Translations under genes and position numbers: made by a program
The notes under the pieces: model-generated
What the model was told of the DNA's origin: nothing
What the model saw: only the letters and a program-made list of their open reading frames with translations
The model's database searches: none
In this document: positions 1,360 to 41,454 of the stretch, piece after piece
Layout: every line of letters begins with the position of its first letter
Position numbering within the stretch: the first letter of the stretch is position 1
DNA from: Vibrio pomeroyi
GTDB lineage: Bacteria; Pseudomonadota; Gammaproteobacteria; Enterobacterales; Vibrionaceae
Direction of reading: 5' to 3'
DNA length: 64,000 nucleotides
NCBI RefSeq assembly: GCF_024347595.1
Contig: NZ_AP025506.1
Location: 930,001 to 994,000, forward strand

Positions 1360-1376
1360 TTCAGGTCAGACCTCTT
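1360..1376. promoter_or_regulatory. FadR-like operator at the fadIJ start site
   Basis: TTCAGGTCAGACCTCTT contains a perfect 11-base dyad (AGGTC-A-GACCT, 1363-1373) that matches 8 of 10 defined positions of the E. coli FadR core TGGTCnGACCA. It overlaps the predicted transcription start. In gamma-proteobacteria FadR represses fad genes from such positions and is released by long-chain acyl-CoA. The assignment is inference from motif plus location. Confidence 0.65.
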
Positions 1377-1393
1377 AACTTTAAGGAGAAACC

Positions 1394-2701
1394 ATGGGCA
1401 AACAGGAAGTCAAAACGCGTTCTGGAGAACGTGTTGCCGTTGTCGCTGGATTACGAACCCCATTCGCTCGTCAGAGCACAGAATTTAGTCAAGTGCCTGC
1501 GGTCGACTTAGGCAAAATGGTTGTGAGCGAAATGCTTGCAAGAACTGATGTCGATCCTGCGCTTATTGAACAAGTCGTCTTCGGCCAAGTTGTTCAGATG
1601 CCAGAAGCACCAAACATCGCGCGTGAAATCGTGTTGGGCACAGGCATGGACATCAATACCGATGCCTACAGTGTGACCCGAGCGTGTGCGACCAGTTTCC
1701 AAGCGGCAGTCAACGTTACTGAAAGCATTATGGCGGGCACGATTGATGTCGGCATTGCAGGTGGTGCGGATTCGTCTTCAGTATTGCCAATCGGTGTTTC
1801 GAAAAAGTTAGCGGCAAATTTATTAGCGCTGAGTAAAACCAAGACCATGGGGCAAAAGCTGAAGATTCTTAAAACCCTTTCAGTGAAAGACCTTATGCCA
1901 GTACCGCCAGCTGTTGCTGAATACTCGACTGGTTTATCCATGGGTCAAACCGCTGAACAGATGGCGAAGACGCACGGTATTACGCGCGAAGCTCAAGATG
2001 CACTTGCCCACCGTTCTCACTCTTTGGCTTCTCAAGCATGGAAAGAAGGCAAGATTAAAGACGAAGTGATGACTGCATTCCCAGCGCCTTACAAAAAGTA
2101 TCTAGCGGAAGACAACAACATTCGTCACGACTCAACGGTTGAAGGTTACGCGAAGCTGCGTCCTGCATTCGACAGAAAATACGGTAGTGTAACGGCAGCC
2201 AATGCAACGCCTCTGACTGATGGCGGCGCTGCGGTTATGTTGATGCGCGAAGGTAAAGCGAAAGAGCTAGGCTTAGAAGTGCTTGGTTATATTCGTGGCT
2301 ATGCGTTCTCAGCAATCGGTGTTGAAACAGATATGCTGATGGGGCCGACTTACGCGACTTCGCAAGTATTGAAGAACACTGGCCTAGAGCTGTCAGATTT
2401 GACGCTGATCGAGATGCACGAAGCATTCGCTGCACAAGTGCTGGCGAATGTGAAAATGTTTGCAAGTGACGAGTTTGCTCAGAAAAATCTTGGCCGCGAT
2501 AAAGCGATCGGTGAGATTGATATGGAGAAGTTCAACGTACTGGGCAGCTCTATTGCTTACGGACACCCATTTGCTGCGACTGGTGCGCGCATGATGACTC
2601 AAACATTACGTGAACTGAAACGTCGCGGTGGCGGCTTGGCACTGAACACAGCTTGTGCTGCTGGTGGTTTAGGTGCAGCAATGATCTTGGAGGTAGAATA
2701 A
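1394..2701 (+). CDS. fadI: 3-ketoacyl-CoA thiolase FadI (acetyl-CoA C-acyltransferase)
   Basis: A 435-residue thiolase catalysing the last step of beta-oxidation: 3-ketoacyl-CoA plus CoA gives acetyl-CoA and a shortened acyl-CoA. Catalytic residues are visible: the nucleophilic Cys98 in VTRACATSF, His391 in [12 protein letters not shown], and the acid/base Cys421 in [10 protein letters not shown]. Length equals E. coli FadI, the subunit of the FadIJ complex, rather than the shorter FadA. The ATG at 1394 has AAGGAG at a normal distance. The stop overlaps the fadJ start (TAATG), so FadI and FadJ should be made in balanced amounts. It is cytoplasmic and likely controlled by the FadR-like site at its promoter. 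Confidence 0.96.
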
Positions 2702-4917
2702 TGTCTACGACTCTTGATGCAACAACAGAAAAAGAAACAGTCGCTCAACCAGATTCAACGTCTGCGACTGAATCAACCAAAAAGAAAGCAACCGCATTCT
2801 CTCTTAATATCGATGACCAAGACATTGCTTGGCTAGCGATCGATGTACCGGGCGAGAAAATGAATACGCTACAAGCCGCCTTTGCTGAAGAGATGAAAGC
2901 GATCTTTGAGCAGTTAAAAGAGAAGCAAAGCCGCGTTAAAGGCCTAATCGTTCATTCTCTTAAGCCTGATAACTTTATCGCTGGTGCTGATGTGCGAATG
3001 CTGGATGCGTGTAAAACCGCTGATGAAGCGCAGTCTCTAGCTCGTCAAGGTCAGGAAATGTTCCAAGCGCTGTCTGATCTCCCTTACCCAGTCGTCGCAG
3101 CAATTCACGGCCCATGCCTTGGTGGCGGCTTAGAGCTCGCACTAGCATGTGACTACCGTGTATGTACCGATTCCGATAAGACACGTCTTGGTCTGCCAGA
3201 AGTACAATTAGGCTTACTACCAGGTTCTGGTGGTACGCAGCGTCTGCCTCGTTTGATTGGCTTGCTACCATCGCTCGATCTGATTCTCACCGGTAAACAG
3301 CTTCGTGCTAAGAAAGCGAAATCGCTTGGTGTTGTGGATGCTTGTGTCCCTGATACTATTTTGCTTGAAGTGGCGAAAAGCTTCGTTGAAAAGAATACGG
3401 GCAGCAAAAAAGGTAAACGTCTAGCGTCTAAAAGCCAAGCTTCAACCAAAGAGAAACTGATTTCGCGTAATGGCCTTGGCCGTAAAGTGATTTTTGAACA
3501 AGCGTCGAAGAAGACCAATCAGAAAACACGTGGCAACTACCCAGCGGCAGACGCGATTCTTGATGTGATTCGTTATGGTCTAGAGAACGGCTTTGAAAAA
3601 GGCCTTCAATATGAAGCGAAGCGTTTCTCTGAGTTAGTAATGACTTCTGAATCAAAAGCCCTTCGTTCAATCTTCTTTGCAACCACTGAAATGAAGAAAG
3701 AACACGGTGCAGATGCAGAACCGAAAGCGGTTAAGCGTGTTGGCGTTTTAGGCGGCGGTCTTATGGGGGCAGGTATCAGCCATGTCAGCGTAGCTAAAGC
3801 AAAAGTACCAGTCCGTATTAAAGACGTATCAAATGAAGGTGTGCTGAACGCACTTAACTACAACTACAAGTTGTTCGATAAGCAGCGTAAGCGTCGTATT
3901 CTGAGCCGTGCTGACCTTGAAAGTAAGATGCTTCAGCTTTCTGGTGGTATCGACTTTACGAGTTTTAACCACACTGACGTAGTGATTGAAGCGGTGTTTG
4001 AAGACCTTGACCTTAAGCAGTCGATGGTTGCAGACATTGAAGAAAATGCTAAGCCAGAGACGATCTTCGCGACGAATACATCTTCGCTACCAATCCATAA
4101 GATTGCGGAGAAGGCGAAGCGACCAGAAAATGTGGTCGGTCTTCACTACTTCAGCCCTGCTGAGAAAATGCCGCTGGTTGAAGTTATTCCTCATGAGACA
4201 ACCTCAGAAGAGACTATCTCGACTGTAGTGGCATTAGCGAAGAAACAAGGCAAAACACCGATTGTTGTTAAAGATACTGCCGGTTTCTATGTGAACCGTA
4301 TTCTTGCTCCGTACATGAATGAAGCGGCACATCTGCTATTGGCAAATGAGCCGATTGAAAAGCTCGACAGCACGTTATTGGACTTCGGTTTCCCTGTTGG
4401 CCCAATTACCTTGTTAGATGAGGTGGGTGTAGATATCGGAGCTAAGATCATCCCGATTCTGGTTAATGAATTAGGCGATCGTTTCCAAGGTCCTGATGTG
4501 TTCGACATTCTTCTGAACGACAACCGTAAAGGCCGCAAGAGTGGTAAGGGTTTCTATACCTACAAAGGTAAGAAGAAGGAAGTCGATAAGTCAGTTTACA
4601 AACTGCTTAAGCTACAACCTGAACCTAAGCTAAGTGATAACGACATCGCAATGCGTTGTGTGTTACCTATGCTCAATGAAGCGGTTCGTTGTCTAGACGA
4701 TGGTATTATCCGTAGCCCTCGTGATGGCGATATTGGTGCTATTTTCGGTATCGGTTTCCCTCCATTCTTAGGTGGTCCGTTCCGTTATATGGATCAAATC
4801 GGTATTAAGTCACTGGTTGAGATGATGAATGACTTCGCTAAGAAGTACGGCGATCGTTTTGCGCCATGTGATGGTCTACTGACACGAGCTGGCTTGGATG
4901 AGTCTTTCTACAAGTAA
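2701..4917 (+). CDS. fadJ: Multifunctional fatty acid oxidation subunit FadJ (enoyl-CoA hydratase / 3-hydroxyacyl-CoA dehydrogenase)
   Basis: A 738-residue fusion enzyme. The N-terminal crotonase domain shows [10 protein letters not shown], the oxyanion region [14 protein letters not shown] (near residue 141) and [20 protein letters not shown] (near 164). The C-terminal dehydrogenase begins with the NAD-binding [14 protein letters not shown] (near 347), followed by ATNTSSLPI and [17 protein letters not shown]. It hydrates enoyl-CoA and oxidises the 3-hydroxyacyl-CoA, passing 3-ketoacyl-CoA to FadI. I start it at the ATG at 2701, which shares one base with the fadI stop and has GGAGG upstream; the open frame extends 16 codons further but inside fadI. 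A long Lys-rich linker (residues about 235-275) joins the two halves. A strong terminator follows. Confidence 0.96.
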
Positions 4918-4938
4918 CTCTCTAGTTCGCTAATTATT

Positions 4939-4970
4939 AAGCCCGTATCAAGCCATTGATGCGGGCTTTT
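4939..4970 (+). terminator. Terminator of fadIJ
   Basis: Twelve-base stem AAGCCCGTATCA / TGATGCGGGCTT (one G-T pair) followed by a short T run. Confidence 0.85.
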
Positions 4971-4984
4971 CTGTTTAATGGGCG

Positions 4985-5150
4985 AGTGAAAGGAATGAGA
5001 TTCCCAACTCGGTCGTTCCTCTCTCTCTCGGTAATGACGGTCGAAAGTAAGCTATTGCGTTGATAAGAACGGCGGTCAAACACATCTCAATCAAAACTAC
5101 CGTCATCTCCTAAAGCGACGAAGGAGCGCAATAGGAGATCTGCTTTTATG
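4985..5150. repeat. Possible degenerate palindromic intergenic element
   Basis: Between two convergent genes. ATGACGGT (near 5034) is exactly complementary to ACCGTCAT (near 5099), and flanking CGTTCCT and AGGAGCG also pair with one G-T. A pyrimidine-rich CTCTCTCTC run lies within. No ORF with a credible start was seen. It resembles the imperfect palindromic repeats scattered between genes in Splendidus-clade genomes, but I see only one copy here, so the repeat call is tentative. Confidence 0.35.
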
Positions 5151-5160
5151 TTCGACCAAT

Positions 5161-5193
5161 AAAAAAGGTTGATGCTTTCACATCAACCTTTGA
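5161..5193 (-). terminator. Terminator of the M16 peptidase gene
   Basis: Read leftward, AAGGTTGATG pairs with CATCAACCTT around a short loop and is followed by a T run. It lies about 20 bases beyond the stop codon. Confidence 0.8.
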
Positions 5194-5210
5194 TTTCTAA
5201 AACACCCTTA

Positions 5211-7988: not shown

Positions 7989-8293
7989 AGGAGCATCTCC
8001 AGAGAAGGTGGTTTTTAAATTATGTACCCGATGATTCGGCGTGCAAACCTTGTAATCATATTTTGGGATATGAAGTGCTTTTTGGCGATTTCTAAATCAC
8101 TTTTATCGATTTTTATCAGTAATTTATTTTCTTTTAACAAGATTGTTAAGAAAGTCGAACTCTTTGGCAAGTGACTTGATATAATTATTTATATTGACTG
8201 CGGTTTCTCTGGATTGAGAGCCAAACCTAAGTAGCGTTTCGCTGATATATGGGATATATCGACTTTCGACATGTTACGAAGACAGGATTGAAC
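7989..8293. other. Divergent intergenic region, M16 peptidase / sixA
   Basis: About 305 bases, AT-rich from 8090 to 8200. Promoters in both directions must lie here, but several weak -10-like boxes prevent a choice. I saw no ORF with a ribosome site, no strong dyad and no terminator. Confidence 0.5.
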
Positions 8294-8758
8294 ATGAAAA
8301 TATTCATTATGCGCCACGGTGAAGCAGAACATTTTGCGGACTCGGATGCAGAACGAGCGTTGACCAAGCGCGGGAAAATGGCTTCTCTTGCAGTGGCACA
8401 AGCTGCAAATGAGCAGGGGATTAGTCAATTCGATAAAGTGCTGGTGAGCCCATATTTAAGGGCACAAGAAACGTGGTTAGAGATCTCTCAGGCGTTTTCT
8501 GGTACGAAAGTAGAAACCTGTGATGATATTACGCCTTATGGAATGTCCGACGATGTGTTTGATTTGACCTTGGCAATGGCTGAAGTAGAAAAACTAGAGA
8601 CCATTTTATTTGTTTCTCATTTACCTCTAGTGGGCTACCTAACAGCAGAGTTTGCAACTGGTATGGCTCCGCCGATGTTCCCAACGTCTGGCCTAGCCTG
8701 CATCGATTTTAACCTTGAAACACAAAAAGGTGAGTTGCTTTGGAACATCAATCCATAG
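8294..8758 (+). CDS. sixA: Phosphohistidine phosphatase SixA
   Basis: A 154-residue histidine phosphatase. The catalytic RHG triplet is at residues 7-9 (FIMRHGEAEHF). A second conserved histidine is in ILFVSHLPLVGYL. SixA removes phosphate from histidine of HPt or phosphocarrier proteins; in E. coli it acts on the nitrogen phosphotransferase system protein NPr and on ArcB. I start at the ATG at 8294 (upstream AGGA), because the 15 extra codons of the open frame have no ribosome site and would lengthen the protein past the family norm. It is a single-gene unit, closed by a strong hairpin shared with smrB. Confidence 0.92.
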   Translation: MKIFIMRHGEAEHFADSDAERALTKRGKMASLAVAQAANEQGISQFDKVLVSPYLRAQETWLEISQAFSGTKVETCDDITPYGMSDDVFDLTLAMAEVEKLETILFVSHLPLVGYLTAEFATGMAPPMFPTSGLACIDFNLETQKGELLWNINP

Positions 8759-8797
8759 TGAAGGTGAAGGCAACCTTTTAATTGGAAGACTAAAGTG

Positions 8798-8837
8798 AAA
8801 AGGGCATCTCAATGATTTGAGATGCCCTTTTTGTTTT
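8798..8837. terminator. Bidirectional terminator between sixA and smrB
   Basis: Stem AAAAGGGCATCTCAA / TTGAGATGCCCTTTTT with a three-base loop. It has T runs on both strands and so serves both convergent genes. Confidence 0.9.
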
Positions 8838-8865
8838 TGGTGATGGAGTGATTCGCAAACCAGCA

Positions 8866-9396
8866 TTACTTCTCAGGAATCGAGAGCAGTACCAACAACG
8901 CACCGTTACCGCCAAATTCTAATGGCGCTTGGTGAAAAGCCATCACGTCTGGGTGCTGTGCTAACCACAAAGGCACTTTCTGCTTAAGGATGTGTTTGCC
9001 AATGCCGTGTTGAACGCAGGCACACGCCACACCTTCTTTAATGCAGTGCGCGATCATCGCGCCAAGTTCGCGTTTGGCTTCTTGCTGAGTCATACCATGC
9101 ATGTCTAGATAGACATCTGGAACATAAACACCACGACGCAGGCGCTTCACCTCATATTTAGAGACATCATCACGCGCATAACGTGTTGGCCCGTCTTCGC
9201 TAAGGTGCGGAATGAACTCATCCGAGAAATAAAACTCGCTATCTCTCGCTTGTCTTGCCGTTCGAGTAATTTCTTTTTGCTTGGCATTTCTTTTTGGCTG
9301 CTGGACTATGGTATCCTGTTGCAACTTTTTAACGCCCTTTACTGCATCGTTGAATAGGGCGAAATCGTCATCGAAGTCGGTGTCTTTTTTGCTCAT
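8866..9396 (-). CDS. smrB: Ribosome-rescue endonuclease SmrB
   Basis: A 176-residue protein with a C-terminal Smr domain. The DxH signature appears as YLDMHGMTQQEA, followed by the HGIGKHIL loop and GGNGALLVLL near the C-terminus. The N-terminal region is charged and probably binds ribosomes. SmrB cuts mRNA between collided ribosomes so that rescue systems can act. The start is the ATG at 9396 (MSKKDTDFDDD); the open frame runs 20 codons further but that would reach the divergent prmB start. Only 62 bases separate the two divergent start codons, so both promoters are packed into this gap and the coding ends. Confidence 0.93.
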   Translation of the reverse strand: MSKKDTDFDDDFALFNDAVKGVKKLQQDTIVQQPKRNAKQKEITRTARQARDSEFYFSDEFIPHLSEDGPTRYARDDVSKYEVKRLRRGVYVPDVYLDMHGMTQQEAKRELGAMIAHCIKEGVACACVQHGIGKHILKQKVPLWLAQHPDVMAFHQAPLEFGGNGALLVLLSIPEK

Positions 9397-9458
9397 CAGG
9401 TTATGAATTCTAATTAGAAACGTAATTAGCAGTATTGTAGCGCTTTTCGGAGACAATT

Positions 9459-10391: not shown

Positions 10392-10452
10392 GTAATGACG
10401 GCTAGTTTTAGCCTAGTACTTGGTAAGACGTTCTATTTAAAACGTTTAATTT

Positions 10453-10485
10453 AAACGCCATGCAGCAATGCATGGCGTTTTTTAT
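10453..10485 (+). terminator. Terminator of prmB
   Basis: Perfect stem AACGCCATGCA / TGCATGGCGTT with loop GCAA and a run of T. Confidence 0.9.
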
Positions 10486-10615
10486 TGCCTTAGTTTTGGG
10501 GTTAAGTCATCAACGCAGGATAAATAATGTTCAATATTTAGTTGCCTAATATGAATAGCTATTACATATTGGTGGCTAATGTTTAGCCGTTTTAGTGAGT
10601 TAAGGAGAATTCGCG

Positions 10616-11257: not shown

Positions 11258-11332
11258 ATTTTTGATTTATCAGAGGGCTGAATAGTTACAGAAAATTCTT
11301 AATGCTGTCATAAAAGGTTAATATTAATGTGC

Positions 11333-11362: not shown

Positions 11363-11396
11363 GTAGTTACACCATCACGTTCTCAAGGAGAGACAT

Positions 11397-13231: not shown

Positions 13232-13255
13232 AGCAGTACGTCAAATCAAACGAGT

Positions 13256-29380: not shown

Positions 29381-31425
29381 ACTAGCTCTCCTTGATGATT
29401 CACTGCGCTGCCTTGAGACACACCACTTAATTGCTTAGCGGCGGTGATCTGTTGTTCTAGCCCTTGAATAAGTGGCTCGACAGACAGTGGGATTTGATGA
29501 GTAATGAGCTGACCAATGCACTTGATGAGCGTGACAACATCGTTACCACCCTTGGCATTGGAAGCGATTGAGCAGTATTGGTCTGCTACGTTGTCGCTGC
29601 GGTTGATCTTGTCGATCAATGTGCTGGTTTGACGATCGGCACCCACTTCAACAAACAGGCGAGCACCTTGCTGACGTGCACTCTGGATCAACGCGGTGAA
29701 ATCCAGCGTTGAACAGAAGGTGTCGGCAATTGAAAGGGCGATGCTGTCGCTGTCGATATTGATTGGTGCACCAGTCGGTAGACCTGCTGCGCTGATAAAG
29801 CGGATATGCTTTGGTAACTCGTCGAACAGTGGTTGCGTGTAAAACTTTCGCACTTGGTTATGCTGACTTAGCGCTGGTGTGGTGTGCATTGCGGTAACAC
29901 GGTTCGCGGCAATGCCACGTTTACCCAGTTTTTTGAGCAGAGCACGACAAGTGTTTTCACAACCAGCCAGTACGCAGGTGTCACCTTGGATGATAGCGAG
30001 ATAAGCGCGTGGGAACTCTGGTAATAGAGCTTCAATCGCTTGTGCATCACTGCGAACCACAAAGCTATTCCATTGGATGCTTTCGTCGCCGTTCAGCTTC
30101 CAATCTTGACGCACTGCGGTGAGCTCGCCAGAAATAGCCGTGGTGAAGATAGGGCTAGTTTGAGTCATCTCAATCAGCGCATGTGGGTTCTTCCAAACAT
30201 TTAAGCTCGCCCACATGGAAGCTTCACCCTTGGAGTAACCTAAAGCGAAGTCTGGCTGCACTTTGAACTCATCACATAGCAGTTGTGTTAACAGATAACT
30301 ACTGCCGACACCTGCAATTGCTAATTCACTAAGCGACATTTCTTGCGAGTCTTCAGCGTAGGTTTTGTCAGCCTGCAGCATTTCTTTCAGGTTACCTTCG
30401 CGCTCTAAACGAGCAAATAACTGTGGGAAATGGTGGTGAAATTCACGCAACATACCGGGATAAACCGTGCCAACACCTGGGTAAACAAATGCAACGCCAC
30501 CTTTGCTTTGAGGCTTCGGTGAGAAACAACTGCCCGCTGGAGTCTTGTATTGGCTATTGTCTGCCATTATTTTTGGCAACGCATTTTCTAGCGCTGTGAT
30601 CTCTTGTATTGCAGCCTCAATTGAAGCTGCTTGAATCACGATGTTCGCGCCAAGGTCAGCATTGTGCTGAACACTTTGGAAGTGGCTTAGGTTTGAATGC
30701 ATCAAGTTGGCGATAGCAAGTTCGCTGTCCGCTGAATCATTAATGCATTTTAGCTCTTCTCTCAACGAGGCTAGCTGAGAAACTAATTTAGCTTTGTCAT
30801 TGCCAGAAACCACAAACATCAAACGTTCGCTCGATAGCAAGGGCTTTGGTTCTTGCAAACCGGTAGCTTGAGTCAGTATCAGGCTGGTGGCGTTTTGGCT
30901 ATCGTCATTGAAAGTTAACGCAGCAACACGTGCTTTGTTCGGCTCAGTGAACCAGTAATTATTAGCTAATGAATGGCTCGGCAATGAACGACTCGATATC
31001 GCATTAACCATATTCAACAATTCATCAAACTGCTGCGAAGCAGAGAGTGCTGAGTATTGCTGTTGATGGCTTAGATCTGTCGCGGGGCGGCGTGCAATAT
31101 CCAGAGCAAGCTGAACGCTATCTTCGATAGTTGCATCTGCAAAACTCGCTAGATAAGCGTGTGGATGAATCTTGTTTTGAGCAGCGGTCAGTGCACTCAA
31201 CATCACCAATGATGGAGCGAGAGAATCCAAACAAAGCTTAACAGCACTACCTTGATTGATTGCCTCAATCGCTTGAGTAAGCGCTTGATTAAAACTGCCA
31301 TCAACCACAACAGTCATCATCTCAGGAAGCGAAGGTGATAAGTCGGCAGAAAGCTCAGCCGCATTTGCTGGCTGAGCTAAAAGAGCGATGCGCAATGGCA
31401 TCGCTTTATTAGTAGGAACAGTCAC
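29377..31425 (-). CDS. pfaB: PUFA synthase acyltransferase subunit PfaB
   Basis: A 682-residue subunit. The C-terminal half is an acyltransferase domain: FVYPGVGTVYPGM and nucleophile Ser398 in LGYSKGEASMWASL, so the usual GHSxG is GYSKG. The N-terminal third has no clear catalytic motif and looks like a degenerate KS-like or scaffold region. Published work on EPA and DHA clusters ties PfaB to product chain length, but I cannot tell the product from this sequence. The start is a GTG at 31425 that shares one base with the pfaA stop (TAGTG), with AAGGAG upstream. An ATG eight codons later has no ribosome site. It is coupled to pfaC by an ATGA overlap. Confidence 0.93.
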   Translation of the reverse strand: MTVPTNKAMPLRIALLAQPANAAELSADLSPSLPEMMTVVVDGSFNQALTQAIEAINQGSAVKLCLDSLAPSLVMLSALTAAQNKIHPHAYLASFADATIEDSVQLALDIARRPATDLSHQQQYSALSASQQFDELLNMVNAISSRSLPSHSLANNYWFTEPNKARVAALTFNDDSQNATSLILTQATGLQEPKPLLSSERLMFVVSGNDKAKLVSQLASLREELKCINDSADSELAIANLMHSNLSHFQSVQHNADLGANIVIQAASIEAAIQEITALENALPKIMADNSQYKTPAGSCFSPKPQSKGGVAFVYPGVGTVYPGMLREFHHHFPQLFARLEREGNLKEMLQADKTYAEDSQEMSLSELAIAGVGSSYLLTQLLCDEFKVQPDFALGYSKGEASMWASLNVWKNPHALIEMTQTSPIFTTAISGELTAVRQDWKLNGDESIQWNSFVVRSDAQAIEALLPEFPRAYLAIIQGDTCVLAGCENTCRALLKKLGKRGIAANRVTAMHTTPALSQHNQVRKFYTQPLFDELPKHIRFISAAGLPTGAPINIDSDSIALSIADTFCSTLDFTALIQSARQQGARLFVEVGADRQTSTLIDKINRSDNVADQYCSIASNAKGGNDVVTLIKCIGQLITHQIPLSVEPLIQGLEQQITAAKQLSGVSQGSAVNHQGELV

Positions 31426-34400
31426 TATGACAATTGCTCCTTTTCTGTTTTCATGTCCGCTTTAGGCTTACTCGCTACTGCTGAGCTAGACTTCGCCAAA
31501 AATGCGTCGTTTAAGCTCTTGCTGATGGTGACTTTTGCACCTTTCATTACCGCACTTAAGCGACCATCCTGGTGGTAAAGCGAGATATCAGCTTGCAGTG
31601 AACGAGTCGTGCTTTTTATCACGTTCAGTTCTAGCCAGCCTTGGTCACCATTGTGCATCGGTGCGTAACAAATAAACTCACCGATGGCAGACGGTAGGCT
31701 TGCCGCGCCGTATTTTAATCGAGCCCATACCAACATGGCTTGCAGTAAATAATCTTCTGCAAATGGTTGGCTATCGCCAAAGCCTTGCTTCGGAATAAAT
31801 GATCCGCAGTCGCTGTTTTCGATCTGAGGTAGCTGGCATTGAGCCAATAAACCTAAGTCGTCAAAGCGTTCGACTGAGGTAATACCTTGCAATCTTGGTC
31901 CATGAAACAGAGTGCCGTCACTGTATAGAGCTTGTGCCGTTGTTACAGGTGTTGAAGTTCTGGCTTCAAAGCGTTTTACTGACGCTTGTTGAACATCTTC
32001 AGACATTTGCACTGAGGCAACTTGCAACTGAGCTTGATACTGTGGTCGCCCTTGGCAACTGATCACTGCTTTTAGCTGATCTTTTGATTTAGCGTCAGAA
32101 GAAAGAACCAGTTTCAGCTCTTGCACTTCATCAGTATCAAAAATCACACCCTTAAGCAGTTTGTAGTTGTGAACGCTAACGTTCACCCCTAACAGTTGCT
32201 CTGCGATTTCACGCATCCATTGGATGGCACACACTGTCGGTAACACTGGGTTACCGGCAATGCAGTGATCTTGAATGAAAGGCAATGCCTTCGGGTCAAG
32301 ACGACGTGTCACAGTGATGCTTGTATTCAGCGGACTCTTTGCAAGATGCACAGACTCCGCATTAAGCTTTTTTACAGCAGCTTCCTTGTTGTCAGAACCT
32401 TGCATGCTCGTACCAACCAGCAATTGAATGCCAGTTTCGTTCAGTAGCTGAGAACTAAATAGCTTTGCACCCGCCTGAAGAGGAATCACGTACACACCGC
32501 GCTCTGTAAACATACGTTTCAGTGCTGCGTTGACCATGCCGCCGTCCCACGGTCCCCAGTTGAAGCTCATCACTTTCGCTTGAGGGTTACGAGCAGACAG
32601 TTGTAGAGCCGCTTTATTTAGGATCTCGTTAGACATTGAGTAGTCACTTTGGCCAGTGTTTCCGTAGAAACCCGCCGCCGAAGAGAACATCGCAATCAGT
32701 TTTAGCTTGCTGCTATCAAGACCACCAAGAACCGCTTCTAATCCACCCACTTTGGTGCCGTAAACCATGTTCAGTTCATCAAGCGTTTTGTCTTGAATAT
32801 GCTTGTCAGCCAGTACGCCTGCACCGTGGATTAAACCTGTGATGCCTTCGAAATTCGCCAGCGTTTTCGCTACTGACTCATGGTTCGAAACATCTAGGCT
32901 TAGGTATTCAGCGCTCGCGCCAATCTCATTGAAAGCGGCAAGTGCTGCGTTGATTTCAAGGCTGCTCAATACCGGCTTTAGCAAGGCATCAACTTTTTTC
33001 GGCGTTGGCTTGTCACCTGTTGCTTGTAGGTGAGCGATAGCCGCTGGTTTTAGCTCTTTCTCTTGCTTGCCTTGTGCCCACTGAGGTTGCTCAGCTGAAG
33101 TAATATGCTTACTACGACCTGCAAGAATGAAGTGAGACTTACATTGCTTAGCAAGCGTCAGTGCACATTCAAACGTCACGCCTTTAGCGCCACCCGTTAC
33201 GAGAACTTTGTCACTCTTGGTGAGTTGAGCGCCTGTGTTTTTGGTTTGTGCTGCACCTGGTGCTGCAGCGATCAATGTTGCACGACCAGAATCACCGTTT
33301 TCTGCATGGCTAAGGCCGATTTCAACCGTGTTGGTATCGATATCGAACAGTTCGCCTGTGATAGCTTCAGCTAGGTGACGAGCATCAATAGAAGCGTCAG
33401 CATCCAATGCACGGCAGAACACGTTTGACCATTCATGGCTCAGTGTCTTAGTGAGACCGGACAACGCGGCTTGGTTAAGTTCTGCATTCGCTAATTGCTT
33501 AGTATCTAGGTAACCAAAGCCACCATCGATACGGCTTAGCGTGAAGAACACGCTGCGACCTGAAACGGCATTCAGCTGACCATTTAGGTGCTTAGCGAAT
33601 AAGAACGCTGTCGTCAGTGAAGCTCTTGAGTCTGCATTCAAGTTAACCGCTTGCTCGTTGCTTTGTTTCGCATCAACGATAGCTTGTAAATGAATGAAGC
33701 CAGCAATCACTTTGTTTGACGTTTTAAGGTCTGCTTCGATGTCGTTAATCACAGCTGTCACACCAGTATCATCGATACTGTTGAGTGTGTAGCTTGCGAT
33801 TTCACTGTTTAAAGGTGACGCGGCAGAAAGAGCACTGCGCACTACAGCAACTTGGATGCCGTTAGCGGTCAACTTTTCTGCTAGAACACCGGCGTTGTGA
33901 CCATCATCTGTGATCACGACACAAGCGTCTTTTGAGAAACAATCGACGAGTTTATCTGCCGCTGGTAGCTTTTTTAGCGCCACCTCATTGTGTGGAGGAA
34001 GTTCCGCTGTCGCTGTTTCTGCGATAGGCGTTACTGATTCAGCTTTAGCGGTCGCTACAGGTGCAGCAGCGGAAAGCTTGCTTTGCATGTAGGTAACGAT
34101 TTCACCAAGCGTACGACACTCAGCTAAGTCTTCAGGGTTTAGCTCTGGCAGCGTTGGTAGCTGGTCTTGAACCGTACCTAGAATCTCAACACGTTTGATT
34201 GAGTCGATACCAAGGTCTGCTTCCATGTCCATTGCTAGATCGAGCATTTCTGCTGGGTAACCTGTTTTGTCAGCAACCACTTCCATCATTGTTGATTGAA
34301 CATGAGCAGGGTTTAGGTCGTTGCTCGCGCTTTCTACAGCGGTTGCTGTTGCTTCTGGAGCAGGTTCAGCATTAGTGCCTAGCTTGCTGTTCATGTAGTC

Positions 34401-37400
34401 AACGATTTCACCCAGAGTACGACACTCAGCTAGGTCTTCAGGATTTAGCTCGGGCAATGTTGGTAGCTGGTCTTGAACCGTACCAAGGATCTCAACACGT
34501 TTGATTGAGTCGATGCCAAGGTCAGCTTCCATGTCCATTGCTAGGTCTAGCATTTCTGTTGGGTAGCCCGTTTTATCAGCCACTACGCTCAACATTGTGC
34601 TTTGAACTTGTTCTGCGTTTAAACCGTTTGATACTGCTTGCGCTGGTTCAGATGCTTGAGTTGCTACTGGAGCAGAAGCCGGAAGCTTACTGTTCATGTA
34701 GTCGACTATCTCGCCTAGAGTACGACACTCAGCAAGGTCTTCAGGGTTTAGCTCTGGAAGAGTCGGTAGCTCGTCTTGAACCGTACCTAGGATTTCAACA
34801 CGCTTGATTGAGTCGATACCAAGATCAGCTTCCATATCCATTGCTAGGTCTAGCATTTCAGTCGGGTAGCCCGTCTTCTCTGCTACCACTTCTAACATGG
34901 TTTTCTGGACTGTTTCTGAATCCAAACCGCTAGCAGCATCTAGTCCGTTGTTAGACGTTACCGGAGCAACTACTTCCGTTTGTGCTGCAACTGGTGCAGA
35001 CGCTGGAAGCTTGCTGTTCATGTAGGCAACAATTTCACCTAGAGTGCGACACTCAGCTAAGTCTTCAGGGTTTAGCTCTGGAAGAGTAGGCAGTTCATCT
35101 TGAACTGTACCAAGAATTTCAACACGCTTGATTGAGTCGATACCAAGGTCTGCTTCCATATCCATTTCTAGATCAAGCATTTCCGTTGGGTAACCTGTCT
35201 TCTCAGCAACCACTTCTAGCATGGTTTGTTGAACGACTTTTGCATCAAGACCATTAGCTACAGCAACTGCTTGAACTGGTGCAGCTTCATTAGTTGAAAC
35301 TCCAAAAGGCATCTTGCTGTTCATGTAGGTAACGATTTCACCAAGAGTACGACACTCAGCTAAATCTTCAGGGTTCAGCTCAGGTAGGTTTGGCATCTCG
35401 TCTTGAACGGTACCAAGGATCTCTACGCGCTTGATTGAGTCGATACCAAGATCTGCTTCCATGTCCATTTCTAGATCAAGCATCTCCGTTGGGTAACCCG
35501 TTTTCTCAGCGACCACTTCCAGCATCACTTTTTCAGCATCTGCTGATTGTACTGCTACTGGTGCAGCCACAGGAGCCGCTTGCGCTTTAACTGGCACAGG
35601 TTGAGCTGCAACAGGCGCTGCGGCTTGAGCCGCTACTTGTGGTGCAGGAGCGGTTTTCTGTACTGGAGCTTTCTGAGCTGTTGTATTTTGAACCGGCGCA
35701 GCTTGAACAGACTGAGCTTGAACAGGAGTCGCTTGTACTTGAGCAACAGACTGTTGAACAATAGCTGCTGGAGTAGTTGGGGCTTGAATCGCTGGTTGAG
35801 CATTTACTGGCGCAACGAAGGTTGGTTGTGCGGTTTGCACTGAACCTTGCGTCAGCATATTAAGTGCTGAGTTGTTGCTGTGCGCTTGCATCTCTAGGTA
35901 ATGAGCGTGAGCTTTTAGCGTTTCAGCTTGGTGCTGGTGGAACATCTCCATAGAACGCTGTAGGTTCTCAGGAATGGCTACGCCCGCTGTTGCCATTTTC
36001 GCTTGCTCAGACATTAGGGTGTTGAACGTGTCACCGTATTGCTGAGGAATCGCCAAGAATTGCTGATGTACTTCTGCTGCTTGTTGTTGAGCATTGAAGA
36101 ACGATTGCAGTGAAGATTCATCAACCGCTACTTGAGCTGTTGGCTGACTAGTCGCTGGGGCTGTTTGAACCACTTGTGATTGCGGAGCTGCTGCTGCTAC
36201 TTGTGCACTTGGTGCTGGAGTAACTGACTGTTGTGCATTTGAAGCTTGAGGAGCAGCCACAGGTACTTCAACGATTTCTGTTTTAATCACTTCTTTTTCC
36301 ACGATTTTCTCGACTTCAACTTTCACTTCAACAATCTCAGTCTTCTCGGTGACGTTGCCCGAAGCCAATGATTGATCCATCTTCTTACGAGTAGCTGGGC
36401 TGATGTAGTTGGTTGCATTCAGCTTGATGTTCATTGGTGATGCCTTTGCAGGTTCAGCAATGTCAGCTTGGTAAGGGTCAATGTTGTCTAATGAAACACC
36501 CGCTATACACAGTTGAACCGCAGCTAAACGAAGCTGTTGGTCACTGTCGCCTTTAGGGCTTGGATTGATGCTGATTGCGTACAGTTCTTCGTTCTTATCA
36601 GCCAATGTTTTTTCAACCAGCTTCTGAAGAATGTTTTTAGGACCGAACTCTACGAATACACGAGCGCCTGCTTCATACATCGCTTCAATTTGCTCGCTGA
36701 AACGAACCGATTGCAGCATGTGTTGCTTGAACGCTTTCTTGATCGCTTTCGCGTCTTTGCTGTGCAGTTTGCCCGTTGCGTTTGAGTAAAGCGGTAGCGT
36801 AGGAGCGCTGAATGAAGCTTTATCAATTGCAGCAGCAAATGGTTTTTGAGCGTGAGCAACAAGCGGTGTGTGGAAAGCGCCAGAAACTGGCAGAGCAATC
36901 GCTTTGAAGCCTTGTTCAGTTAGCGCTTGTGCTGCTTGTTGAACCGTCGCTGTTGGGCCAGCAATAACCAGTTGAGTTGGAGCGTTGTAGTTGGCAATGC
37001 TCACACCTTCGAATTGGCTGATGCAACTTTCAACGGCTGGAAGCTTGTCTGCGTCTAGGATGACCGCAAACATAGTACCGCTATCGCCTTGTTCAGGTGT
37101 TGCAGCCATCGCATCACCACGAGCGAAAGCTAGCTGGTAGTAATCGTCTTGCGAGATAACACCCGATGCACATAGTGCACTTAACTCACCAAAACTGTGG
37201 CCTGCGACCATGTCTGCTTTGAAGCCAGCTTGAGTCATGATGTCAAACTGACCCATAGACACAGTACCAATCGCACTTTGCGCATTGGCCGTGTTGGTTA
37301 GTAACGCTTCTTGAGCTTTGGTTGCTTCTGGTGTGAAAGTTGGAATTGGGAACAGAATTTGCGATAAGGCCGTCTTCTTGTGCTGACCAAATACTTGATC

Positions 37401-39284
37401 CGCTTGAGCAAGCTGTTGGCGCATTTCTGGGTAATGACAAGCAAGCTCGCGACCCATGTTGAGGTATTGCGAACCTTGACCTGCAAATAGTGCCGCGACT
37501 TTAGCTGCACCGTTTTCAGCAATCAGTGCTGACTCACGGTAGCTAGTACCGTTCGGCATCTGCCAATGTGTTTTGGTTTGGCTCTCAAGCATAGAAATCG
37601 CTTGAGCCAGTTGCGCTTGAAGGTCTGCTTGGTCAGTCACGACTAAACCAAGACGAGCATGCTGAGCGTCTACTTCGCGCAGAGCGTGCTGCTCAGCAAG
37701 TGCTTCCAGTTTGAACGCAGCATCGGCAACTTGAGTCGAAACCTGTTTTAGCTCGTTGATCAGTGCTTGGCGAGATTCTGCGCTGAATAATAGAGTTTGC
37801 GGCACTTGGCGCTGACGGTATTTGTCACCGCGAGCGTGCTCTGGCCTGTACTCTTCTAATACAACGTGGAAGTTAGTGCCACCAAAACCGAATGAGCTGA
37901 TACCTGCACGGCGCGGTGTGCCGTCGACACGCTGCATCCAAGGGCGCGTTTGTGTGTTTAGGTAGAACGGTGAGTTCTCGATGTCCAGTTTAGGATTCGG
38001 GCTCGACACGTTGATCGTTGGCGGAAGTACTTTATGGTGCAATGCCAATGCGGCTTTGATCAAACCAGCAGTACCCGCAGTTGATTTTGTGTGACCAATT
38101 TGAGATTTCACAGAGCCTAACGCAATGTGTTGCTTCTCTTCGTTGTTCTCACTGAATACCGAGTTTAGGCCACCAAATTCAGCCACATCACCCGCTGCAG
38201 TACCGGTGCCGTGCGCTTCTAGTAAGCCAAGCGTGTGCGGTGCAAAGCCAGCATCATCGTAAGCGCGTTTTAGTGCTTTTGCTTGTCCTTCAGGGCGAGG
38301 CGCGTAGATACTCTTGAACTTACCGTCCGAAGAAGAACCGACACCTTTAATCACTGAGTAAATTCTGTCGCCATCGCGCTCTGCATCTTCAAGACGCTTA
38401 AGAGCAACCATGCCGATACCTTCACCAATCATCATGCCTTTTGAGTCGATGTCGAAAGGTTGAATGGTTTCATTAGTGGTGAATGCTGGTGTTTTAGAGA
38501 AGCTCATGTACATGGTTGGCGAGTTATCAGTACACACACCACCAGTGATCATCATTTCACTGCGGCCTTCAACCAGTTCACTTAGAGCCATGCGCATTGC
38601 AGCTAGAGAACCTGCACAAGCGGCGTCTACTACACAGTTGATGCCACCAAGGTCAAAGCGGTTAGCTATACGACCTGAAATTACGTTACCCAATGAACCA
38701 GGGAATGAGTTCTCTTCCCAGTGGATGTATTGGTCTTGGAATTTTTTGATCAGCATTTCGCTGTCTTCGTCGTTGATGCCACTGCTCTTGAAGACTTTTT
38801 TCAAAACAGGGTATTGCAGACGAGCATTCAAGCTTTGAGCGATCTTCTGACCACCACCAACACCGAGCGTAATACCGATCTTGTCGCGATCGTAACCTTC
38901 TGGAAGTTTGGCATCTTCAAGTACTTCTTTTGCCACAATCAGAGAAAGCAGCTGTGACGTATCAGTCAGTTCTAGGATATTTGGCGGAAGGCCGAACTCC
39001 ATTGGGTTGAAGTCGACTTCAGGGATGAAACCGCCGCGCTTACAGTAAGACTTGTCTGGCGTCGTACGATCTGAATCGTAGTAATCTTCTGGACGCCAGT
39101 GCGTATCAGGCACTTCGGTAATTGCATCGATCTTTTCGCTGATCAAATCCCAGAACTTGTTTAAGTAGCGAGAGTTCGCAAACATGCTTGCCATACCAAC
39201 GATAGCAATAGGCATGTCTTTAAGACGTTTATTAAGTCGAGTGTCGTCGACTGATTCCGGTGTATTTTTTTCGGGTTGGCTCAT
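31425..39284 (-). CDS. pfaA: PUFA synthase PfaA (KS-AT-5xACP-KR, hot-dog C-terminus)
   Basis: A 2619-residue iterative synthase. Domain order: ketosynthase with Cys223 (VDAACAGSLAA), EAHGTGTAAGD and KSQIGHTKSTAG; malonyl acyltransferase with Ser697 (AGHSFGEL); a Gln/Ala/Pro linker of about 250 residues; five ACP domains; a ketoreductase (VTGGAKGVTFECA near 2028, FSSAAGFYGNTGQSDYSMSN); and a C-terminal dehydratase-like hot-dog region (PFIQDHCIAGNPVLP, near 2335). The phosphopantetheine serines (LGIDS) are at residues 1283, 1384, 1492, 1593 and 1695. I start at the ATG at 39284 (MSQPEKNTPE) with GGAG upstream; the 44 extra codons of the open frame lack a ribosome site. It makes long-chain omega-3-type fatty acid from malonyl-CoA, probably EPA or DHA. 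Confidence 0.96.
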   Translation of the reverse strand: MSQPEKNTPESVDDTRLNKRLKDMPIAIVGMASMFANSRYLNKFWDLISEKIDAITEVPDTHWRPEDYYDSDRTTPDKSYCKRGGFIPEVDFNPMEFGLPPNILELTDTSQLLSLIVAKEVLEDAKLPEGYDRDKIGITLGVGGGQKIAQSLNARLQYPVLKKVFKSSGINDEDSEMLIKKFQDQYIHWEENSFPGSLGNVISGRIANRFDLGGINCVVDAACAGSLAAMRMALSELVEGRSEMMITGGVCTDNSPTMYMSFSKTPAFTTNETIQPFDIDSKGMMIGEGIGMVALKRLEDAERDGDRIYSVIKGVGSSSDGKFKSIYAPRPEGQAKALKRAYDDAGFAPHTLGLLEAHGTGTAAGDVAEFGGLNSVFSENNEEKQHIALGSVKSQIGHTKSTAGTAGLIKAALALHHKVLPPTINVSSPNPKLDIENSPFYLNTQTRPWMQRVDGTPRRAGISSFGFGGTNFHVVLEEYRPEHARGDKYRQRQVPQTLLFSAESRQALINELKQVSTQVADAAFKLEALAEQHALREVDAQHARLGLVVTDQADLQAQLAQAISMLESQTKTHWQMPNGTSYRESALIAENGAAKVAALFAGQGSQYLNMGRELACHYPEMRQQLAQADQVFGQHKKTALSQILFPIPTFTPEATKAQEALLTNTANAQSAIGTVSMGQFDIMTQAGFKADMVAGHSFGELSALCASGVISQDDYYQLAFARGDAMAATPEQGDSGTMFAVILDADKLPAVESCISQFEGVSIANYNAPTQLVIAGPTATVQQAAQALTEQGFKAIALPVSGAFHTPLVAHAQKPFAAAIDKASFSAPTLPLYSNATGKLHSKDAKAIKKAFKQHMLQSVRFSEQIEAMYEAGARVFVEFGPKNILQKLVEKTLADKNEELYAISINPSPKGDSDQQLRLAAVQLCIAGVSLDNIDPYQADIAEPAKASPMNIKLNATNYISPATRKKMDQSLASGNVTEKTEIVEVKVEVEKIVEKEVIKTEIVEVPVAAPQASNAQQSVTPAPSAQVAAAAPQSQVVQTAPATSQPTAQVAVDESSLQSFFNAQQQAAEVHQQFLAIPQQYGDTFNTLMSEQAKMATAGVAIPENLQRSMEMFHQHQAETLKAHAHYLEMQAHSNNSALNMLTQGSVQTAQPTFVAPVNAQPAIQAPTTPAAIVQQSVAQVQATPVQAQSVQAAPVQNTTAQKAPVQKTAPAPQVAAQAAAPVAAQPVPVKAQAAPVAAPVAVQSADAEKVMLEVVAEKTGYPTEMLDLEMDMEADLGIDSIKRVEILGTVQDEMPNLPELNPEDLAECRTLGEIVTYMNSKMPFGVSTNEAAPVQAVAVANGLDAKVVQQTMLEVVAEKTGYPTEMLDLEMDMEADLGIDSIKRVEILGTVQDELPTLPELNPEDLAECRTLGEIVAYMNSKLPASAPVAAQTEVVAPVTSNNGLDAASGLDSETVQKTMLEVVAEKTGYPTEMLDLAMDMEADLGIDSIKRVEILGTVQDELPTLPELNPEDLAECRTLGEIVDYMNSKLPASAPVATQASEPAQAVSNGLNAEQVQSTMLSVVADKTGYPTEMLDLAMDMEADLGIDSIKRVEILGTVQDQLPTLPELNPEDLAECRTLGEIVDYMNSKLGTNAEPAPEATATAVESASNDLNPAHVQSTMMEVVADKTGYPAEMLDLAMDMEADLGIDSIKRVEILGTVQDQLPTLPELNPEDLAECRTLGEIVTYMQSKLSAAAPVATAKAESVTPIAETATAELPPHNEVALKKLPAADKLVDCFSKDACVVITDDGHNAGVLAEKLTANGIQVAVVRSALSAASPLNSEIASYTLNSIDDTGVTAVINDIEADLKTSNKVIAGFIHLQAIVDAKQSNEQAVNLNADSRASLTTAFLFAKHLNGQLNAVSGRSVFFTLSRIDGGFGYLDTKQLANAELNQAALSGLTKTLSHEWSNVFCRALDADASIDARHLAEAITGELFDIDTNTVEIGLSHAENGDSGRATLIAAAPGAAQTKNTGAQLTKSDKVLVTGGAKGVTFECALTLAKQCKSHFILAGRSKHITSAEQPQWAQGKQEKELKPAAIAHLQATGDKPTPKKVDALLKPVLSSLEINAALAAFNEIGASAEYLSLDVSNHESVAKTLANFEGITGLIHGAGVLADKHIQDKTLDELNMVYGTKVGGLEAVLGGLDSSKLKLIAMFSSAAGFYGNTGQSDYSMSNEILNKAALQLSARNPQAKVMSFNWGPWDGGMVNAALKRMFTERGVYVIPLQAGAKLFSSQLLNETGIQLLVGTSMQGSDNKEAAVKKLNAESVHLAKSPLNTSITVTRRLDPKALPFIQDHCIAGNPVLPTVCAIQWMREIAEQLLGVNVSVHNYKLLKGVIFDTDEVQELKLVLSSDAKSKDQLKAVISCQGRPQYQAQLQVASVQMSEDVQQASVKRFEARTSTPVTTAQALYSDGTLFHGPRLQGITSVERFDDLGLLAQCQLPQIENSDCGSFIPKQGFGDSQPFAEDYLLQAMLVWARLKYGAASLPSAIGEFICYAPMHNGDQGWLELNVIKSTTRSLQADISLYHQDGRLSAVMKGAKVTISKSLNDAFLAKSSSAVASKPKADMKTEKEQLS
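34100..35530 (-). repeat. Five tandem ACP-coding repeats within pfaA
   Basis: The serine codons lie at 35436, 35133, 34809, 34506 and 34200, with periods of 303, 324, 303 and 306 bases, all whole codons. All five copies have the same residues from MDMEADLGIDSIK through EILGTVQD and share PELNPEDLAECRTLGEIV. Copies differ by synonymous changes and in the Ala/Pro/Val linkers between domains. More ACPs are known to raise PUFA yield in such synthases. Confidence 0.95.
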
Positions 39285-39641
39285 TATGAGTCTCCACTTG
39301 AAATCACTGAGGGCGATGTCGTGTTTTGAGGCTGCGCTTTTAATTGAATCGAAAATAAATCTGAAACAGATTTGGGCAAACGCAGCTGAAGAGTAAGGCT
39401 GCCGAAAATTGGCCACCTGACTGAAATAGGGAGTGCGAAGTTCATTGACTTGCAGACGTTGAGAACGTGTTTCATGCGTGAAGGGGGTATTCGAATGTGA
39501 GGGTAATGTCCATTTAAATCCTGTCCAAAGTACTGCTTAACGGAAAGCAGTTATCCGCAATGAAAACGTGTGAATTTGTTTAATGGTTGAGCAGGCTACC
39601 CGAGGTGAGTTGCCGATACAATGCTCCCAGAGGCCACTATG

Positions 39642-39658
39642 ATCTGTTCAGACCAGAT
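39642..39658. promoter_or_regulatory. FadR-like operator in the pfaA/pfaE control region
   Basis: ATCTGTTCAGACCAGAT is a 17-base near-perfect palindrome: arms ATCTGTTC and GACCAGAT around one base, with a single mismatch. It matches 9 of 10 defined positions of the FadR core TGGTCnGACCA and has the ATCTG/CAGAT outer arms of the E. coli fadB operator. It is about 360 bases from the pfaA ATG and 330 from the pfaE start. Whether FadR would repress or activate here is not known. Confidence 0.6.
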
Positions 39659-39905
39659 GAAATTTGTGTGTTTTTGAATTTTGTATTTTTAATGTAATTA
39701 ACTTATTGATAATTAATGGGTATGACTTGTTTTTTAGTGTTTATACTCTATATTTTGACTTGGTGAGATCTATGTCAGATTTTTGTAAGTAACATTTAAT
39801 AGATGCCTGTTCTGTAAGGCTAAGTGTGATCTGTGTTTTAATTTGTTATTATTTGAAAAATTAGTTTTAAGTCCGCATATGAAGGGTGTTTCCTGCCCAA
39901 ATTCT

Positions 39906-39927
39906 CTATGTTTATCTCAAAACATAG
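39906..39927. promoter_or_regulatory. Inverted repeat ahead of pfaE
   Basis: CTATGTTT-ATCTCA-AAACATAG, a perfect 8-bp dyad with a six-base spacer, 63 bases before the pfaE start. It could be an operator for a dimeric repressor or a leader hairpin. Confidence 0.5.
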
Positions 39928-39990
39928 GTGAGTTAAATTTGTTCGTTTTGATGTTTTATTGATGGCTTTATGAAGAGTGATTTTTAATAA

Positions 39991-40818
39991 GTGAGTGCTA
40001 GAAAGATGGAAACACCAGTCGTTGATTTGTGGCTTTGTTCTCTAAGCGATTTGGATGAAGATACTGATCATGTGTCGCGCCTTAAACAGAAACTGACCGA
40101 CGATGAAGTCGCCAAGGTGGAGCGTTATCGAATGCCTTCATCTCAGATCCAAGCGCTCTATGTTCGTAACTACTTACGAGAGGTTCTGTCGATCTACTCT
40201 GATTTGACGGCTGAAGAGTGGCGGTTTGAGTATGGTGAAAAAGGAAAACCAAGCTTGATTGCAGAGCAGCAACACAAAACCGGACTGAATTTCAATATTA
40301 GCCACAGCCAAGATCATTTACTGATTGCTGTCTGCCAAACGAAAGGGCAATCACTACAGCTTGGGGTGGATATTGAACATGCAAGAAGTTCGACCAACAT
40401 CGCGGCGATAATGAAGCATTACTTTTCGGAGTTTGAGATTAACGACTTACTCGAGCTGGATGAGGTATCTCAAAGAGAACGTTTTTTTGATTTGTGGGCA
40501 CTGAAAGAGTCGTACATCAAAGCGACAGGAAAGGGATTGGCCACATCATTGAAAAGTTTTTCGTTCGACTTTTCCAATCTTACTCAACAAACACTGCCAG
40601 TTCATTCGTCGGGTTTACCACCAGAGTTACATGGCGAAATCATTGTAAACTACGGAGTTGGGTTGGATGTTACTGAACAAGGCGATGTTTCAACAGATTG
40701 GCAATGCAGTTTAGGAAGGTTGAATAACCAGTTTCGATTTGCCGTGACGCATGGTGGTGCAACGCTTCCTATGCAATTAGAGATGAAGTGCTTTCCCAAA
40801 TCGAAGCTACTTGGCTGA
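39991..40818 (+). CDS. pfaE: 4'-phosphopantetheinyl transferase PfaE
   Basis: A 275-residue Sfp-type transferase that attaches the phosphopantetheine arm to the ACP domains. The magnesium-binding motif is LGVDIEHA (near residue 125), and the second signature is FFDLWALKESYIKATGKGL (near 169). An upstream motif, RNYLREVLSIY, and KPSLI fit the Sfp branch rather than AcpS. The frame opens right after an in-frame TAA with GTG at 39991. An ATG at 40006 (METPVVDLW) is a plausible alternative; neither has a strong ribosome site, which suggests modest translation. Its divergence from pfaA and the presence of five ACPs to modify make its partner clear. Confidence 0.93.
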   Translation: MSARKMETPVVDLWLCSLSDLDEDTDHVSRLKQKLTDDEVAKVERYRMPSSQIQALYVRNYLREVLSIYSDLTAEEWRFEYGEKGKPSLIAEQQHKTGLNFNISHSQDHLLIAVCQTKGQSLQLGVDIEHARSSTNIAAIMKHYFSEFEINDLLELDEVSQRERFFDLWALKESYIKATGKGLATSLKSFSFDFSNLTQQTLPVHSSGLPPELHGEIIVNYGVGLDVTEQGDVSTDWQCSLGRLNNQFRFAVTHGGATLPMQLEMKCFPKSKLLG

Positions 40819-40925
40819 GTTTACGCTCGTTACACTAGAACCTTGAGCTTCTAATCTGGAACAAGGCCTACTGTCAACTAATCGCACTTTCAGCCACTCC
40901 CGCTCTCAGCCACTAACAATCTTAG

Positions 40926-41333
40926 TTAACTCGTTTCGCCAAGCATCGCTTTTAATACTTCAGCGGGTACAGGCTGAAGTTGTTTGTCTTTATCTAGGCA
41001 AACCATCTCGATATCACCAATCACGGCAGGTTTGGTCGCATCTTTACGCCATACCTCTTGTCGCCATAAGGTTTTGTATTTGCCATCGAGTTCAAAAGAG
41101 GTTCGGATATCGCAGATCTCTGCGAATTCGACCCCGTCTTGAAAGGTCATATTAGCTTTATACACCGCAAACCCCAGTCCATGCTCATTCCATAATGTCG
41201 CCAGTTTATCGCTGCCCAACACATGCTCGCGCGCACGCTCAAAGTATTTAAGAAAGTTAGGGTGATAAACCACACCTGAGTGATCGGTATCTTCGTAGTA
41301 AATCTGTACTGGGTGATGGTAGATCTGACTCAT
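40926..41333 (-). CDS. YbgC/FadM-type hot-dog acyl-CoA thioesterase
   Basis: A 135-residue single hot-dog protein. The catalytic region YYEDTDHSGVVYHPNFLKYFERARE is the 4-hydroxybenzoyl-CoA thioesterase signature with the active-site aspartate. I start at the ATG at 41333 (MSQIYHHPV) with AAGAG upstream. It is convergent with pfaE and not in the tol-pal cluster where ybgC usually lies. EPA-producing bacteria have a thioesterase gene (orf6) near pfa genes that aids product release, so a role in freeing or editing PUFA acyl chains is plausible. It could equally be a general acyl-CoA thioesterase. A FadR-like sequence lies about 105 bases upstream, as expected for a FadM-like enzyme. Confidence 0.85.
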   Translation of the reverse strand: MSQIYHHPVQIYYEDTDHSGVVYHPNFLKYFERAREHVLGSDKLATLWNEHGLGFAVYKANMTFQDGVEFAEICDIRTSFELDGKYKTLWRQEVWRKDATKPAVIGDIEMVCLDKDKQLQPVPAEVLKAMLGETS

Positions 41334-41437
41334 GGGTAACAACTCTTGGTAAGTAGTGGATCAGTAAATCTGACTAAGTTGTGCAGCACTCTACAGGATA
41401 GGTTGAAATTACTTCAAGGCATCATCGTGAAAGGGGC

Positions 41438-41454
41438 TTTTGGTCAGACCTCAT
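41438..41454. promoter_or_regulatory. FadR-like site upstream of the thioesterase gene
   Basis: TTTTGGTCAGACCTCAT matches 9 of 10 defined positions of TGGTCnGACCA and shares GGTCAGACCTC with the fadIJ operator. It is about 105 bases upstream of the thioesterase ATG. It could instead affect the dctP side, but lies 155 bases before that promoter. Confidence 0.5.

Follow-up and report, generated by a model that had tools for sequence, protein, structure and literature searches.

Three FadR-type dyads suggest reciprocal control of beta-oxidation and polyunsaturated fatty acid synthesis in Vibrio pomeroyi

We analysed a stretch of 64,000 nucleotides of Vibrio pomeroyi (hereafter the window; positions 930001-994000 of contig 1 in a 5.66-Mb genome of two contigs). 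It holds the beta-oxidation operon fadIJ together with pfaA and pfaT, genes of a polyunsaturated fatty acid (PUFA) synthase cluster. The N-terminus of pfaA is 99-100% identical to records of V. crassostreae, V. splendidus, V. lentus and V. tasmaniensis, and we take the source to belong to the splendidus clade. Dyads of 17 bp resembling the operators of FadR, the acyl-CoA-responsive regulator of fad genes, lie at fadIJ, in the control region of pfaA and pfaE, and upstream of the thioesterase gene. The initial annotation had listed these three dyads and suggested that they may form one regulon; their sequences and coordinates were verified (TTCAGGTCAGACCTCTT at 1360-1376, ATCTGTTCAGACCAGAT at 39642-39658 and TTTTGGTCAGACCTCAT at 41438-41454). 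The features concerned, with start sites placed by eye throughout, are as follows.

1330-1335 and 1352-1357, plus strand: putative fadIJ promoter boxes TTGATT and TACAAT
1360-1376, plus strand: FadR-type dyad of the fadIJ promoter; matrix score 18.6, leave-one-out 14.3
1394-2701, plus strand: fadI (thiolase), first gene of fadIJ
31425-39284, minus strand: pfaA; the conserved ribosome-binding site guided our choice, by eye, of the start codon at 39284
39583-39604, minus strand: another conserved block, CTCGGGTAGCCTGCTCAACCAT, immediately after the putative pfaA start, seen in the alignment of pfaA loci
39618-39623, minus strand: -10-like CATTGT of pfaA, 18 bp from the dyad
39642-39658, minus strand: FadR-type dyad at pfaA, reading ATCTGGTCTGAACAGAT in the pfaA direction; score 14.9, centre at about -39 of the putative start
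39991-40818, plus strand: pfaE, a divergent phosphopantetheinyl transferase gene; translation may begin at the ATG at 40006
40926-41333, minus strand: pfaT (orf6), hot-dog acyl-CoA thioesterase
41388-41417, minus strand: conserved pfaT promoter, TTGAAG-18-TAGAGT
41438-41454, minus strand: FadR-type dyad ahead of pfaT, reading ATGAGGTCTGACCAAAA in the pfaT direction; score 12.4, centre at about -65 of the putative start

The bare 9-mer of the motif, with one mismatch allowed, is no commoner in the window than chance predicts (8 matches against a shuffle mean of 7.8; 51 of 100 shuffles gave at least 8), and we therefore built a 17-bp FadR matrix. It was trained on sites upstream of fadI in Vibrionaceae (28/30 loci) and of fabA (29/30), plsB (26/29) and fadB (27/28) in the genus, leaving out the second fragment of a split plsB (L226), two fadB paralogues (L255 and L256) and, throughout, the pfa sites. 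Since the training sites were chosen by patterns written after an earlier stranded matrix pass had been inspected, the score at fadI is partly circular, hence the leave-one-out value given above. The matrix was applied to the window, and the genome was covered by pattern searches. As the initial annotation had proposed to check, the dyads rank first (fadI), second (pfaA) and third (pfaT) of all window positions, placing a 17-bp candidate operator upstream of each gene; the fourth-best position (11.9) lies at 33418, within pfaA. A random sequence of 5.66 Mb contains 33 positions scoring at least 14 and 159 scoring at least 12, about 0.4 and 1.8 per 64 kb. Hence, by score alone the pfaA site is notable and the pfaT site is not significant. 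The scores are modest, most so at the thioesterase, and conservation is the deciding evidence.

Genome-wide counts must be interpreted with the same care. The exact core GGTCNGACC occurs 14 times, against 30 in the reversed control, and 15 sites lie within three mismatches of the symmetric consensus ATCTGGTCNGACCAGAT, against 19. A motif that is not enriched in the window and is rarer in the genome than in its control provides no evidence by number, and bare counts were not used as such. Among the 15 sites, the one at pfaA is the sole one with a single mismatch to the consensus, the remaining 14 having three. The initial annotation noticed no further intergenic copy of this kind, which is true of the window but not of the genome, where 9 of the 14 exact cores are clear of any open reading frame (ORF) of at least 80 amino acids.

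Conservation at pfaA was assessed in upstream DNA from the best 80 of 228 pfaA loci, 25 from Vibrio and Photobacterium and 55 further ones (54 titled Shewanella and one Aliivibrio metagenome-assembled genome). The dyad is found 371-460 bp before pfaA in 23 of the 25 and 1.04-1.15 kb before it in 25 of the 55, all Shewanella; the pfaA site is thus not peculiar to this strain and is common to Vibrio, Photobacterium and part of Shewanella. Operators are also kept upstream of orthologues of fadI, where the core GGTCNGACC precedes the gene in 28/30 Vibrionaceae loci, and of pfaT (14/23). In 13 diverse Vibrio and Photobacterium representatives the dyad is the most conserved of the 504 windows of 17 bp upstream of pfaA (0.887 vs a mean of 0.494). 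Its distance from the -10-like box is nearly constant, while the spacer sequences differ: the dyad ends 19 bp before ATTGT in 21 of the 23 Vibrio and Photobacterium loci, 20 bp before it in the remaining two, and 18 bp before it in all 25 Shewanella loci with the dyad. This is the spacing of fabA. In this genome, dyad-18-CATTGT at pfaA compares with dyad-18-TAATAT at fabA, a layout common to 22 of the 23 distinct Vibrio fabA promoters compared, and the E. coli probes presented in PMC4537474 read dyad-18-TATCCT for fabA and dyad-18-TATTGT for fabB (spacing counted here). The pfa promoter thus shares with FadR-activated fabA and fabB promoters (E. coli; fabA of Vibrio and Shewanella) a FadR-type dyad 18 bp before the -10, and differs from them in driving a polyketide-type PUFA synthase.

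The dyad also tracks pfaA across genomes. The composite CTGGTCNGAASAG-N20-22-ATTGT matches 48 of 329 Vibrionaceae genomes, with 0 matches in the reversed control, and 46 of these 48 are among the 57 genomes that carry pfaA (called at E up to 1e-120); the other two, G243 and G251, gave no pfaA match. Among 30 loci fetched from the 48 matches, 28 lie 331-420 bp before pfaA. The strict composite is absent from 11 pfaA genomes, some of which may be accounted for by GAAGTG variants (the P. profundum kind) that the pattern excludes. In three Photobacterium loci (L047, L048 and L049) an overlapping frame of the AAGAGATCCAACCTCTT type, at -393 to -396 from pfaA, outscores the dyad (13.2-13.7), as if the sites were in tandem.

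The thioesterase matches the solved ORF6 thioesterase 3r87/4i45 (E 1.9e-79), and its gene is linked to pfaA in 23 of 25 Vibrio and Photobacterium loci. By match and by linkage it is PfaT/Orf6 and therefore part of the pfa cluster, not the separate branch of the regulon that the initial annotation had made of it. According to PMC6463001, P. profundum Orf6 now bears the name PfaT and is required for optimal output of eicosapentaenoic acid (EPA) or hydrocarbons. The dyad lies upstream of the -35 box, and the arrangement dyad-19/20-TTGAWG-18-TANAGT recurs in 14 of the 23 Vibrio and Photobacterium loci with pfaT. As a composite it matches 37 of the 329 genomes (3 in the reversed control), all of which carry pfaA and the pfaA composite, and it precedes pfaT in all 30 loci fetched from these 37 matches.

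The genome has the protein that these sites would call for. We found a single FadR_C protein, an intact FadR of 279 amino acids above the curated cut-offs, whose N-terminal DNA-binding domain shows full identity with the solved FadR chains 5dv5 and 4p96 (V. alginolyticus and V. cholerae). In vitro, the FadR proteins of these two species and of V. parahaemolyticus bind a fabA probe from Vibrio (PMC5733061), and FadR binding at fabA has been reported for Shewanella and Vibrio. A FadR paralogue was sought and rejected: in a survey of FadR_C proteins there is at most one in each of 40 other genomes, and 39 of the 41 genomes have one. The nine exact cores outside ORFs lie at fadIJ, pfaT and seven more loci. 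Six of these are marked by a FadH/OYE-like oxidoreductase, a weakly PlsB-like acyltransferase, an enoyl-CoA hydratase, a metallo-hydrolase/ArsP-like permease pair, suhB/trmJ and a TetR-type gene; the seventh gave no match to a family. These neighbours indicate that a FadR regulon of fairly ordinary make-up is present.

How would FadR act at the three sites? As described in PMC9329746, E. coli FadR represses from -10/+1, activates from upstream of -35, and is an activator of fabA and fabB. The fadIJ dyad overlaps the putative start site, i.e. a repressor position; the pfaA dyad has the activator spacing of fabA and fabB, and the pfaT dyad lies upstream of -35. Hence, the predicted control is reciprocal and not uniform. 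By position, fadIJ would be repressed, pfaA activated like fabA, and pfaT probably activated. When compared with the FadR-repressed promoters of fadIJ, fadBA and fadM, the fadIJ dyad shares their conserved core, whereas those of pfaA and pfaT differ, being upstream of the putative -10 and not over the start site. The regulon of the initial annotation therefore keeps its FadR-type motif, its conservation and its link between pfa and fad, and loses its single sign.

From the sites, their conservation and fixed spacing, the gene identities and the intact FadR gene, we infer that the single FadR uses all three dyads as operators, with opposite signs, repressing fadIJ and activating pfaA and probably pfaT, and give this a probability of roughly 0.57. 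Without long-chain acyl-CoA, FadR would occupy the fadIJ start site and repress beta-oxidation; it would also aid RNA polymerase in expressing the PUFA synthase, from a position near -39 of pfaA like that at fabA, and the thioesterase, from one near -65 of pfaT. Imported fatty acids would be converted to acyl-CoA, FadR would leave, fadIJ would go up and pfa down. The activating sign at pfaT is the weakest step.

Several observations weigh against reciprocal control by FadR. The strict dyad was not found in 30 of the 55 further pfaA loci, nor in two of the 25 Vibrio and Photobacterium ones, L047 having a degenerate copy and L055 none that we could find. Outside the splendidus clade its commonest form, AACTGGTCTGAAGAGAT, is asymmetric and scores only 11.1, near the leave-one-out score of fabA (10.0). 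Taken singly, the upstream sites are weak: when each upstream region was itself shuffled 400 times, the score of its best site was reached 0-40 times in Vibrio and Photobacterium loci (144 in L055) and 9-126 times in five loci of Shewanella. At pfaT, the dyad was not found at the 19-20 bp spacing in 9 of 23 loci, namely eight Photobacterium and V. tapetis, and the operator is thus conserved only in Vibrio; in seven Photobacterium loci scored upstream of pfaT, four stay below 5 and L048 reaches 13.5. The distances from dyad to -10 at pfaA and pfaT differ by 26 bp and are out of helical phase, which makes the sign at pfaT uncertain. Finally, a review regards the double action of FadR as apparently confined to E. 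coli (PMC9329746).

The most serious competitor comes from Photobacterium profundum SS9, where the pfa promoter reportedly responds to exogenous fatty acids. Allemann and Allen reportedly found in 2020 that pfa falls with these through PfaF, independently of FadR and FabR. The direction of this response fits the FadR model; its independence of FadR does not, and a FadR-activated pfa conflicts with it. PfaF is also said to bind the pfaA promoter there, so that the pfaA dyad could be an operator of PfaF or of another GGTC-type regulator, similar to FadR sites by ancestry or convergence, with FadR controlling fadIJ and not pfa. The asymmetry of AACTGGTCTGAAGAGAT and the core GGTnnnACC, common to other GntR regulators, speak in its favour. 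Yet, both the intact half-site CTGGTC and the spacing agree with those of fabA, the symmetric GGTCNGACC stands upstream of pfaT as it does at fadI, and no second FadR_C protein was found in the genome, the survey covering only FadR_C proteins among GntR regulators. Moreover, PfaF could instead bind the CTCGGGTAGCCTGCTCAACCAT block at 39583-39604, which Vibrio, Photobacterium and Shewanella keep strongly conserved and which may serve a further regulator, PfaF being one candidate, or belong to the leader. We regard this reading as less likely than control by FadR, though PfaF may use the dyad or the block, or both proteins may act there. A literature search, mostly without subscription papers, returned no report of FadR acting on pfa and none on PfaF with PUFA.

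FadR might also bind the pfa dyads as a repressor, with fatty acids inducing pfa along with fadIJ. In E. coli it does repress fad genes, including that of the YbgC/FadM-type thioesterase FadM (PMC9329746). But the pfa dyads are clear of the putative -10/+1, in the activator layout of fabA and fabB. The direction reported for P. profundum, down with fatty acids, is likewise at odds with repression, which we consider improbable. That the palindromes are unrelated and resemble each other by chance would agree with the unenriched 9-mer and the roughly two sites of score at least 12 expected per 64 kb, but it is hardly credible given the conservation, the fixed spacing and the genome-wide tracking of pfa genes.

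Some further features deserve mention. The putative pfaA leader is about 330 nt long (39284-39617, minus strand). A search of 39200-40050 gave no Rfam match at E up to 1, and a folded leader (z -2.2, 2 of 100 shuffles as good) was too weak to claim. A conserved block in the pfaA-pfaE gap (about 39720-39775, plus strand; GAGTAT..ACACTAA and TAGATC.CA on the pfaA strand) is probably the divergent pfaE promoter. On contig 2, GGTCNGACC sites scoring 14.6 (L267) and 18.0 (L268) precede the weakly PlsB-like acyltransferase and the enoyl-CoA hydratase and are likely further FadR targets. Also on contig 2, the site AACTGGTCAGACCTATA (L269, 16.7) lies between the MBL-fold hydrolase and the ArsP-like permease, whose role in lipids is not evident.

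The Shewanella promoters add a candidate second regulator to the picture. In all 25 Shewanella loci with the dyad, a FabR-like box (3-6 mismatches in 18) begins exactly 20 bp before it, so that the pair of fabA regulators recurs at pfa; L064, L072 and L094 are examples, with box and dyad some 1.04-1.15 kb before pfaA. The box is on the opposite side of the dyad from that in fabA and fabB promoters. Some loci (L059, L076 and L088) retain it with the dyad altered. In Vibrio and Photobacterium pfa promoters the best matches have at least 6 mismatches in 18, and a FabR-like box was rejected. FabR control of pfaRABCD was predicted earlier in six Shewanella species (PMC5343134), the same extension of an unsaturated fatty acid regulator to the PUFA synthase; the passages on pfaRABCD name FabR and not FadR, and the FabR-like box found here stands beside a FadR-type dyad.

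One might speculate, tentatively and at slightly less than even odds, that Vibrionaceae and some Shewanellaceae have kept at pfa an old promoter of the fabA type. There FadR, joined by FabR in Shewanella, would activate omega-3 synthesis and the thioesterase while repressing beta-oxidation, one acyl-CoA sensor trading EPA production against fatty acid uptake and breakdown. The idea of a regulon is partly supported, with pfa as a candidate new target of a known kind of regulator. If FadR does activate the pfa promoter, this would explain the lower pfa expression reportedly seen under fed fatty acids, would let one sensor govern both the PUFA synthase and the ordinary route to unsaturated fatty acids, and would provide, in one 17-bp element, a handle on pfa control. 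For these bacteria, imported fat would then turn burning on and omega-3 making off.

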